Source: an uncultured Alphaproteobacteria bacterium (lineage in GTDB: Bacteria; Pseudomonadota; Alphaproteobacteria; Rickettsiales; CAIJLX01). Taken from it: a stretch of 33,001 nucleotides of DNA. Of this stretch, positions 4,073 through 9,589 are shown piece by piece. The DNA is taken from positions 1 through 33,001 of the forward strand of contig CAIJLX010000108.1 in NCBI GenBank assembly GCA_903821695.1, given 5' to 3'. How positions within the stretch are numbered: the stretch's first letter is position 1; each line of letters opens with the position of its first letter. Position numbers and translations under genes: made by a program. The notes beneath the pieces were generated by a model. That model saw only the letters and a program-made list of their open reading frames with translations, made no database searches and was not told the origin of the DNA.

Positions 4073-4783
4073 ATGCCGCTAGAGCAACGATTTAAAACTC
4101 ATATTGCCACGCATACTATTAACCGGGTGGGCTGGCTTCGTGCGGCAATTCTGGGTGCGAATGATGGTATTTTATCCGTAGCAAGTATCTTAAGCGGCAT
4201 GGCTGCTGCCAATATGCCTAAAGAAACCATTCTGTTGTCGGGTATTGCCGCTTTAGTTGCAGGAGCTGCGTCTATGGCGACAGGAGAATATGTTTCCGTT
4301 AGCTCTCAATCAGACACCGAAAGGGCAGACCTTGAGCGCGAAGCGCATTCTCTAAAAACAAATCCACAATTTGAATTGGAAGAACTCACTCAGCTTTATG
4401 TTGTGCGGGGATTAGACGAACATTTAGCCACGCAAGTGGCAACACAATTAATGAAAAAGGATGCGCTAGGCGCTCATGCTCGTGATGAGCTTGGTATTTC
4501 AGACATGCTTGTTGCAAGGCCTTTACAGGCGGCTTTTGCTTCAGCAGCAAGCTTTATTCTGGGGGCAATTCTTCCTGTATTGGTAGTATTAGCTACACCA
4601 GAAAATATGCTGCTGCCGGCCATTATTAGTATAACGCTGTTATGCCTGGCTACACTCGGTGCTGTCGGTGCAAAAATCGGTGGCGTGAAGATGCTTACGC
4701 CTACATTACGAATGCTGCTGTGGGGTAGCCTTTCGTTAGGTCTTACGACACTCGTTGGTATTTTGTTCAATGTTTCAGTGTAG
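4073..4783 (+). CDS. VIT/CCC1-family metal transporter
   Basis: The 236-residue membrane protein belongs to the VIT1/CCC1 family, which moves iron or manganese. It begins with the typical VGWLRAAILGANDGILSVASILSG helix, continues with the GAASMATGEYVSVSSQSDTERAD segment, a soluble helical part (about 80-145) rich in acidic residues that in this family binds metal, and three C-terminal membrane helices. Five helices in total match the family. In bacteria such proteins are usually linked to Fe2+ or Mn2+ export or storage. It stands alone, 109 bases after the photolyase gene, and could connect metal detoxification with the peroxidase upstream and the FTR1 operon further on, but that link is inference. 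Confidence 0.88.
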   Translation: MPLEQRFKTHIATHTINRVGWLRAAILGANDGILSVASILSGMAAANMPKETILLSGIAALVAGAASMATGEYVSVSSQSDTERADLEREAHSLKTNPQFELEELTQLYVVRGLDEHLATQVATQLMKKDALGAHARDELGISDMLVARPLQAAFASAASFILGAILPVLVVLATPENMLLPAIISITLLCLATLGAVGAKIGGVKMLTPTLRMLLWGSLSLGLTTLVGILFNVSV

Positions 4784-7603: not shown

Positions 7604-7632
7604 TTGACAGCGCAAATGCGAGAGATTATCAA
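7604..7632 (+). promoter_or_regulatory. Sigma-70 promoter of the FTR1 operon
   Basis: A perfect -35 box TTGACA (7604-7609), a 17-base spacer and a TATCAA -10 (7627-7632, four of six) stand about 60 bases before the cupredoxin ATG. No competing promoter is apparent in the gap, so this likely drives all three genes 7691-9589. Confidence 0.6.
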
Positions 7633-7647
7633 TAGCGGCTCTTATTA

Positions 7648-7658
7648 AGAATCATTCT
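7648..7658. promoter_or_regulatory. Iron-responsive operator candidate (Irr/Fur-like palindrome)
   Basis: AGAATCATTCT is a perfect palindrome around a central C, placed 15 bases downstream of the -10 box where a bound protein would block transcription. AGAA-N3-TTCT with a T-rich left flank matches the core of the alphaproteobacterial iron-control element bound by Irr (TTTAGAA-N3-TTCTAAA), and also resembles half of a Fur box. The right flank (CGC) departs from the Irr consensus. Regulation by iron fits the operon, but which regulator acts is inference. Confidence 0.5.
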
Positions 7659-7690
7659 CGCCTTATTTTTTTACATCACGGAACTATCTC

Positions 7691-8020
7691 ATGCAAAAAA
7701 CTACGTTCTTTTCGGCCATCCTGTTTTCATGCCTATTGGTTTCTGTTTCTGCACAGGCGAAGGATTATGTGCTGACATTGAAAAATAACAAATTCGTGCC
7801 ACAGGAATTGACCATTCCGGCGAAGCAAAAAGTTAAAATCACCGTTAAAAATGAAGATGCAACTCCTGCTGAGTTTGAAAGCTTCGATCTAAACCGTGAA
7901 AAAATAATTGCGCCGCATGGCCAGGTTGTAGTGGTTGTCGGGCCGCTTGATGCAGGTACTTATACCTTCTTTGATGAATTCCATAAAGATACAGCTACCG
8001 GTACTTTAATCGTTAAGTAA
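7691..8020 (+). CDS. Periplasmic cupredoxin-like protein of an FTR1 iron-uptake operon
   Basis: A signal peptide (about residues 1-23, ending SAQAKD) is followed by a single cupredoxin fold of about 85 residues. Visible strands include YVLTLKNNKFVPQELTIPA, KVKITVKNEDATPAEFES and the closing GTYTFFDEFHKDTATGTLIV. This matches the EfeO-type cupredoxin-like proteins encoded next to FTR1 permeases, which bind Cu or Fe in the periplasm and help deliver or oxidise iron. There is no cysteine, so this is not a normal blue-copper site; Met, His and acidic residues near EFESFD and EFHKD are likely metal contacts. It is the first gene of a three-gene operon, four bases before the next ATG. Confidence 0.82.
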   Translation: MQKTTFFSAILFSCLLVSVSAQAKDYVLTLKNNKFVPQELTIPAKQKVKITVKNEDATPAEFESFDLNREKIIAPHGQVVVVVGPLDAGTYTFFDEFHKDTATGTLIVK

Positions 8021-8024
8021 GGGT

Positions 8025-8765
8025 ATGTTTATGATGAAAAGAATGAGCGTAACGGCTGCTCTTGCGTTTGTCGTTTCTTCACCTGCTTTTGCGCTGGATG
8101 AAATTTATTCTCCGAATACGGAATATCGTGAGTTATCGTTGGAATATAACGGTAGCCGCACGATTGATAATCATTCCGATAAAAACAATGCACAGGGACA
8201 TGGAATTGGCATTGAAGCAGGGGTGACGCCTCGCCTCACTTTAGCCTTAAGTGGCGGCTTTGCAAAATCACGGGGTGAGTCGACCGATCTTGAGGATGTA
8301 GAAGTAGAAGGCCGTTACCAATTTTTTGAACAGGGTGAAAACTGGGTCGATAGCGGCTTGCTGCTGGCTTATGGCTTTTCAACGCAGAGCAACGAACCCA
8401 ATACGGTTGAAGCAAAAATATTGCTACAAAAGGATATCAATAAAGTAACCAGCACGGCCAATATTGGTGTGGAGCAAACTGTTGGTAAAAACTCGGATGG
8501 CACCGGCGGGCCAGAATATGTTCTGCTGTGGAACACGCGCTATCGTTATAATGTATATTTCCAACCGGGCATTGAGCTGCAGAGTGAATTCGGCCAAGGC
8601 CATACGCTCGGGCATTTTGATGAGCAGGAGCATTATATTGGCCCAGCGGTTTATGGAAAATTGTTCAATAAAGTAAAATACCAGGCGGCGTGGCTTGCAG
8701 GCGTTAGCGATGCAGCGGCGCAAAGTGCGGCGCGTGTAACATTGGAATACGAGATGAATTTCTAA
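8025..8765 (+). CDS. Putative outer-membrane beta-barrel protein
   Basis: A signal peptide ending SSPAFA is followed by alternating polar/apolar strands and a C-terminal phenylalanine (YEMNF), the signature of proteins inserted by the BAM machinery. About ten to twelve strands can be counted (such as RLTLALSGGFAKSRG, DVEVEGRYQFF, YNVYFQPGIELQSEFG, VKYQAAWLAGVSD). Histidines and acidic residues (HTLGHFDEQEHY, DNHSDKN) could lie in loops. I do not recognise the family by name. Between a cupredoxin and FTR1, it may form the outer-membrane step of iron entry or sense it. Start codons at 8025, 8031 and 8034 are all possible; AAGGG at 8019-8023 favours the latter two. Its stop overlaps the FTR1 ATG by one base. 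Confidence 0.7.
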   Translation: MFMMKRMSVTAALAFVVSSPAFALDEIYSPNTEYRELSLEYNGSRTIDNHSDKNNAQGHGIGIEAGVTPRLTLALSGGFAKSRGESTDLEDVEVEGRYQFFEQGENWVDSGLLLAYGFSTQSNEPNTVEAKILLQKDINKVTSTANIGVEQTVGKNSDGTGGPEYVLLWNTRYRYNVYFQPGIELQSEFGQGHTLGHFDEQEHYIGPAVYGKLFNKVKYQAAWLAGVSDAAAQSAARVTLEYEMNF

Positions 8766-9589
8766 TGCTCGCAACTCTCCTCATCGTCTTTCGTGAAATG
8801 ATCGAAGCGGGCCTGATTGTAGGCGTGGTTCTCGCAGCGACGAGAGGGGTGCCTAACCGCAGCCTCTGGGTAGCTTATGGTATTTTGGGTGGCATTGCCG
8901 GGGCCTGCGTGGTTGCAGCATTCGCCAGTCAAATCAGCGCAGCCATGGAAGGTTCAGGGCAGGAATTATTCAACGTTTTTATTTTGCTGCTCGCGGTGTT
9001 GATGTTGACCTGGCACAATGTATGGATGGCTCGCCATGGGCGTGAGATGGCGTTGGAAATGAAGCATGTGGGTGAGGCGGTGAAATCTGGCCGCCGTTCG
9101 CTTACAGCGCTTGCGATTGTGGTCTGGATTGCGGTGCTGCGCGAAGGGTCAGAGGTGGTGTTGTTCCTCTATGGCATCGCACTTTCAAATAATGATTCGG
9201 CTTTGGCGATGGCCTTGGGTGGCATATGCGGCATCGTATTGGGTGGCATTATTTCGGCGTTGATGTATCTCGGTCTGTTGCGTATTCCAACCCGCCATTT
9301 ATTCCGAGTGACAAGCTGGCTGATTGCGCTGCTTGCGGCTGGCATGGCGGCACAGGCGGTATCGTTATTGCATCAAGCACAAATCATCACTTGGTGGGAT
9401 ACGACATTGTGGAACAGCTCTGCCCTTATCTCCGAAGACAGCATCCCTGGCAAAATATTGCATACGCTGATTGGCTATACAGATCGCCCAACCGGTATGC
9501 AATTGGCCGTTTATGCCATTACATTAAGTATTATTTTTGCACTTCTGCATCTGCTAGGCCATGCACCTAGGAGGCGTAGCCAAGCCTAA
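8765..9589 (+). CDS. FTR1-family high-affinity iron permease
   Basis: This inner-membrane permease (274 aa, about seven helices) carries two RExxE motifs, REMIE at 10-14 and REGSE at 126-130, the Fe3+ ligands that define the Ftr1/EfeU family. In known systems Fe2+ is oxidised in the periplasm and passed through the permease as Fe3+. Here the partner is the cupredoxin two genes upstream; no EfeO imelysin domain or EfeB peroxidase lies in the window. The ATG overlaps the last base of the barrel-protein stop (TAATG). Iron control is suggested by the palindrome at 7648. No terminator follows; the next ORF starts after 22 bases. Confidence 0.9.
   Translation: MLATLLIVFREMIEAGLIVGVVLAATRGVPNRSLWVAYGILGGIAGACVVAAFASQISAAMEGSGQELFNVFILLLAVLMLTWHNVWMARHGREMALEMKHVGEAVKSGRRSLTALAIVVWIAVLREGSEVVLFLYGIALSNNDSALAMALGGICGIVLGGIISALMYLGLLRIPTRHLFRVTSWLIALLAAGMAAQAVSLLHQAQIITWWDTTLWNSSALISEDSIPGKILHTLIGYTDRPTGMQLAVYAITLSIIFALLHLLGHAPRRRSQA

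Follow-up and report, generated by a model that had tools for sequence, protein, structure and literature searches.

Organization of the operon

Three co-directional genes on the + strand of the window (the whole stretch of 33,001 nucleotides that was analyzed) span positions 7691-9589 and probably form a Fur-controlled FTR1 iron-uptake operon that places a component in each layer of the envelope, including an acidic outer-membrane channel of its own, often made as a polyprotein in relatives. Gene order, gene fusion, signal-peptide features, the predicted fold, conservation of acidic residues, and Fur-type sites were observed directly; the cutting of the polyprotein, the outer-membrane location, the iron substrate, and the direction of flow are inferred, there are no expression or iron-response data, and evidence for passage of iron through the barrel is lacking. 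The features of the region are as follows:

7618..7636, no strand: second Fur-type site (GCGAGAGATTATCAATAGC), matrix score 11.5, rank 3 of 32,983 window positions
7641..7659, no strand: main Fur-type site (CTTATTAAGAATCATTCTC), matrix score 14.3, rank 2 in the window
7691..8020, + strand: FtrB-type periplasmic cupredoxin with signal peptide, 109 aa (Pfam Cupredoxin_1 2.8e-29; 8vuk E = 6.2e-16)
8025..8093, + strand: signal peptide of the barrel (MFMMKRMSVTAALAFVVSSPAFA), from the sequence; A23 nearly invariant among 92 homologues
8094..8765, + strand: predicted 12-stranded outer-membrane beta-barrel with acidic lumen and C-terminal Phe (AlphaFold, fold match, lumen charge)
8765..9589, + strand: FTR1/EfeU-type inner-membrane iron permease, 274 aa (Pfam FTR1 1.3e-39; REXXE motifs)

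The whole barrel gene occupies 8025-8765 and its product, signal peptide included, has 246 aa. Because the cupredoxin stop codon and the barrel start are separated by 4 bp and the barrel stop overlaps the FTR1 ATG (TAATG), the three genes are very likely carried on a single transcript, a judgment that rests on sequence alone; in the explanation that we favor, the barrel and FTR1 of the window are separate genes that would be translationally coupled. A hairpin 3′ of FTR1 was no better than those of shuffled sequences (z = -0.96). The products named by the first-pass annotation were all borne out, with the Pfam matches to the cupredoxin and the FTR1 permease falling at the positions listed above and the barrel protein having a signal peptide that ends in SPAFA, a C-terminal Phe, and 12 predicted strands. 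About 3 kb upstream of the operon, on the same strand, a VIT1-family gene was found at 4073-4783 (Pfam 3.8e-63; an iron/manganese transporter family).

In the proposed mechanism, the barrel would serve as an acid-lined outer-membrane channel that admits iron, most likely Fe2+, to the periplasm, where the FtrB-type cupredoxin would bind it at an acidic E-x-E/REK site and may oxidize it, and FTR1 would then move it across the inner membrane by means of two REXXE motifs.

Cupredoxin and permease are of known kinds

The permease and cupredoxin belong to kinds that are already known. The cupredoxin was matched by Brucella FtrB (8vuk), whose metal residues are E84/E86/E93 and D118/H121 (PMC11966278); these align with E61/E63/E70 and D95/H98 of the window protein at identical spacing. 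Residues E61, E63, and E70 were 97-100% conserved over 92 rows, and the same alignment had no conserved Cys or Met column, so that a type-1 copper site is absent. The permease scored 136.6 bits with PF03239 against a cut-off of 25.3, which places it in the FTR1/EfeU family, and its two REXXE motifs, REMIE (residues 10-14) and REGSE (126-130), were retained across relatives, with R10/E11/E14 and R126/E127/E130 conserved in 95-100% of 85 rows. The EfeU equivalog NF041756 gave 146 bits, below its cut-off of 255, and no EfeO- or EfeB-type gene was detected by Pfam among the operon neighbors scanned, so the locus does not qualify as an EfeUOB system.

A close parallel is FtrABCD of Brucella and Bordetella, an iron-regulated operon with an FTR1-type permease (FtrC) and an FtrB cupredoxin that carries the acidic E-x-E ... 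REK site (PMC11966278). FtrA (P19; PF10634) is absent from the window's genome and no FtrD polyferredoxin adjoins the operon (Pfam, neighbors only); the window system adds an outer-membrane barrel that in relatives is often fused to the permease. The FtrP component of the five-component FtrAPBCD system (Rubrivivax) might overlap with this barrel; a literature search on the identity of FtrP or on a permease-barrel fusion, with subscription journals mostly outside its scope, found nothing.

The barrel is predicted to be a 12-stranded channel with an acidic lumen

The barrel, of which the 2.1-Mb genome of the window has one copy, was modeled by AlphaFold from a 92-homologue profile with 12 strands and a mean pLDDT of 91.8; this model superseded a prediction from the lone sequence that reached a pLDDT of only 27. 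Fold comparison by VIA-align returned FapF (5o65, Z 21.8) and the COG4313 channel (4rl8, Z 21.5), and superposition on 4rl8 (rmsd 2.8 over 217 residues) qualifies the model as having a 12-stranded channel fold. The likeness to the COG4313/Phenol_MetA_deg channel and FapF extends over 213-217 residues at a Z of about 21.5; however, the sequence identity is 7-9%, the genomic setting is another one, and a fold held in common with FapF and COG4313 shows no function. By sequence, the barrel was below every Pfam cut-off (OMP_b-brl E = 0.002), PF13557 did not match it and matched 4 of 92 homologues at E <= 0.01, and no solved structure was related to it at E <= 1.

The inner face of each strand was assigned by alternating hydropathy, which is a parity argument and not a pore calculation. 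By this assignment, inward positions carry on average 19.2 D/E versus 7.7 K/R per barrel. At five positions (E40, E95, E184, E241, and E243), at least 90% of the residues are acidic, and each of the five is 2-5 residues away from the periplasmic end of its strand. The total charge of the barrel was more negative than that of PF13557 barrels (n = 13, p = 0.012) by a modest margin, and its acidity did not differ from that of relatives that stand alone (p = 0.23); the acidic lumen by itself therefore does not prove an iron channel.

The first-pass annotation had suggested a dedicated porin or receptor and a structural prediction of the pore as a check. The prediction yielded a barrel of the outer-membrane type, its lumen known by strand parity only, and the modeled structure fits better with a small acidic channel. 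The receptor half of the suggestion was dropped: a TonB-dependent receptor, with 22 strands and an N-terminal plug, is ruled out by the 246 residues and far too few strands of this protein.

The barrel recurs beside FTR1

In many unrelated Proteobacteria the barrel is again found next to FTR1 and cupredoxin genes; in the window's taxonomic order this holds for a minority of the FTR1 loci. One isolate that has all three genes, with the REXXE motifs intact, is Guyparkeria sp. SCN-R1 (L099). When the window barrel sequence alone was used to query 289 genomes of the class, the barrel was found in 18, and in 7 of these it was beside FTR1. Among 175 genomes of the order, 43 had the barrel and 80 had FTR1, and by coordinates the two were adjacent or fused in 14 of the 80. 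Absence of the barrel from FTR1 loci in related genomes would have refuted the first-pass proposal; the barrel proved to be present, yet in the order in only these 14 genomes.

A larger set of 119 distinct barrels comprised 39 fused to FTR1, 35 separate and beside FTR1, 9 beside cupredoxin only, and 36 alone, with 83 on the same strand as FTR1 and/or cupredoxin. The linked share of this set is biased upward, since its 80 named loci were gathered with a pattern that derived mainly from FTR1-linked members, and the class and order surveys give the fairer figures. Since 36 members stand alone, the family is not exclusively a partner of FTR1. The gene orders seen included (i) cupredoxin-barrel-FTR1, as in the window, L022, and L132; (ii) cupredoxin-FTR1-barrel; (iii) FTR1-cupredoxin-barrel; and (iv) barrel-cupredoxin-FTR1 (L065). 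Loci of P19 were also considered as a source of the barrel, and the profile found none within about 1.5 kb on either side of 16 P19 matches.

Permease and barrel are fused in one frame in relatives

The FTR1 and barrel genes of the window are unfused, while in 39 relatives the two are encoded as one open frame of about 515-550 aa with the order FTR1, basic stretch, hydrophobic segment, AxA-type site, and barrel; i.e., the linker has the makeup of an internal signal peptide. A net charge of +1 to +5 and a hydrophobic core were present in 35 of 35 linkers examined, and an AxA was found within the searched span of 32 of these, with TxA, SxA, or VxA in the other three. The basic stretch had no ATG in 17 of 35 fused genes and no ATG, GTG, or TTG in 7 of 35, so that internal initiation cannot supply it in those seven. 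From the putative cut site to the barrel motif the median distance was 5 residues both in fused (n = 39) and in separate (n = 74) proteins, and the hydrophobic stretch was slightly longer when fused (median 17 versus 14). Of the 39 fused proteins, 30 have kept a C-terminal Phe or Tyr, which is what a barrel that still assembles in the outer membrane should show.

The fused state has changed repeatedly. On the barrel tree, where the split barrel of the window nests with fused L130, L135, L138, and L134, mapping the fused label takes 19 changes, of which at least 13 fall on starred branches; on a quick FTR1 tree it takes 15, with at least 7 on such branches. As far as sequence comparison can tell, this recurrent fusion says that channel and permease serve one task. 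Sequencing or assembly error can be excluded as its source because the same in-frame join occurs in dozens of unrelated genomes. All fused examples come from metagenome assemblies or from genomes without a species name, and a tblastn search of plasmids did not turn up an intact fused gene in a named isolate. Fused genes are also present in L075 and L080, from metagenome bins labeled Bordetella parapertussis and Klebsiella pneumoniae; these genes cluster with environmental Gammaproteobacteria or with other bins, and the organism labels are probably wrong.

In the fused relatives, the C-terminus of FTR1 would be cytoplasmic and the next hydrophobic segment would act as a signal peptide; signal peptidase would then cut at the AxA, and the freed barrel would pass to the outer membrane. 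On balance, we lean slightly toward the view that an FTR1 permease and an outer-membrane channel are made as a polyprotein split by signal peptidase, which would fix their supply at 1:1, with the fused and split states interconverting often. In the cytochrome b/c1 precursor FbcH of Bradyrhizobium japonicum, too, a single chain comprises a membrane protein and an exported one, which signal peptidase separates by cutting at an internal signal peptide; the two FbcH products both remain at the inner membrane, unlike the barrel, which would reach the outer membrane. No published inner-/outer-membrane polyprotein was found in the literature searched, with subscription journals mostly outside its scope. 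If true, such a polyprotein would be an unusual route to supply two membranes with matched parts.

Fur-type sites in the promoter region

A Fur matrix was built from 33 sites of related operons with the window left out. The sites at 7641-7659 and 7618-7636 ranked second and third by this matrix, a ranking that holds within the 33-kb window only, and on the 99-bp promoter the matrix gave a Markov p of 0.0004. The plain 19-base Fur consensus alone matched at 13 of 19 positions (p = 0.055). Upstream of 33 of 86 related operons a Fur-type 19-mer was detected at p <= 0.01 against first-order Markov shuffles. Control by Irr was considered and set aside, its ICE motif being matched at 10 of 14 positions (p = 0.058), a weaker fit than that of Fur; thus, the Irr/Fur-like palindrome of the first-pass annotation is real by the Fur matrix but is not assigned to Irr. 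The window's genome has two FUR-family genes. One FUR-family homologue (L119) carries HHDHLIDI, which we take to be typical of alphaproteobacterial Fur. The top Fur-type match of the whole window (8160-8178, score 14.4) falls within the barrel gene, outside the promoter, and is possibly an internal Fur site or a chance match.

Weighing of alternative explanations

The genomic linkage, the repeated fusion, the structure, and the Fur sites support an FTR1 system that has an outer-membrane part of its own, as the first-pass annotation had proposed, and the sequence favors an outer-to-inner path for iron, with transport and iron response remaining inferred. The barrel could instead be a small, general porin akin to FapF and the COG4313 channel, one that merely travels along with FTR1 genes and takes another substrate, while iron enters by ordinary porins. 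Its nearest folds are not known for iron, 36 of the 119 family members stand alone, and its acidity does not differ significantly from that of these solo members, all of which such a porin would accommodate; however, the recurrent fusion to FTR1 (at least 13 state changes on the barrel tree) and the co-regulation by Fur-type sites are difficult to account for unless the two share a task, and we regard a general porin as unlikely, though still a reading to be reckoned with.

We attach little weight to the idea that the fused protein stays uncut, its barrel domain tied to the permease and working in the periplasm or inner membrane. The continuous frames and the slightly longer hydrophobic stretch of fused proteins would suit an uncut chain, but the segment has signal-peptide features, its AxA-type site is as far from the barrel motif as it is in separate proteins, the C-terminal outer-membrane aromatic is retained, the roughly 5 residues from site to barrel motif are too few to span the periplasm, and the closest relatives include the same barrel as a normally secreted protein. 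Scarcely any weight is given to an operon that exports or oxidizes iron, in detoxification or lithotrophy, instead of importing it. Although the direction of FTR1 transport is inferred only and some members come from iron-rich or sulfur-oxidizing lineages (e.g., Gallionella, Halothiobacillus, and Guyparkeria), the Fur-type sites overlap the promoter region, which points to expression under iron shortage, and FTR1 proteins with two REXXE motifs import in characterized cases (PMC11966278; established knowledge).

A porin within a ferrous-iron operon already has a precedent in FeoP of Acidithiobacillus, where FeoPABC is a Fur-regulated ferrous-iron permease operon with a porin gene (PMC2631029). 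It differs from the window operon in that FeoP is described as an OprB-family porin-like protein, the permease is FeoB, and there is no fusion. According to a paper on the P19/FTR1 system of Campylobacter, its outer-membrane step has not been identified (PMC6083913). How iron crosses the outer membrane in FTR1-type systems is open, and the window operon offers a specific channel candidate.

Variant loci

The FTR1 closest to that of the window in the search of relatives (L021 in genome G309, 1501-2310, 74% identical) has no cupredoxin or barrel within 1.5 kb, and no barrel is found in that genome; the trio can therefore lose members. In one family of the order (f168, 1.2-2.3-Mb genomes), all had FTR1 and no barrel was matched, and the cupredoxin adjoins FTR1 in both loci read. 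Three solo barrels (L013, L016, and L018) are only 1-2 genes away from what seems, by its sequence, to be a proteorhodopsin gene. On a Hydrogenophaga plasmid (L194, 3456-4205), the annotation splits the barrel next to FTR1 into two short genes, and the barrel may be broken or mis-sequenced. On Pseudoalteromonas and Alteromonas macleodii plasmids (L192, 2767-3507; L193, 2740-3504), a cupredoxin-permease-barrel set follows a response regulator and sensor kinase; the FTR1-like protein of these sets is missing the REXXE motif at its start and may have turned sensor or altered its function.
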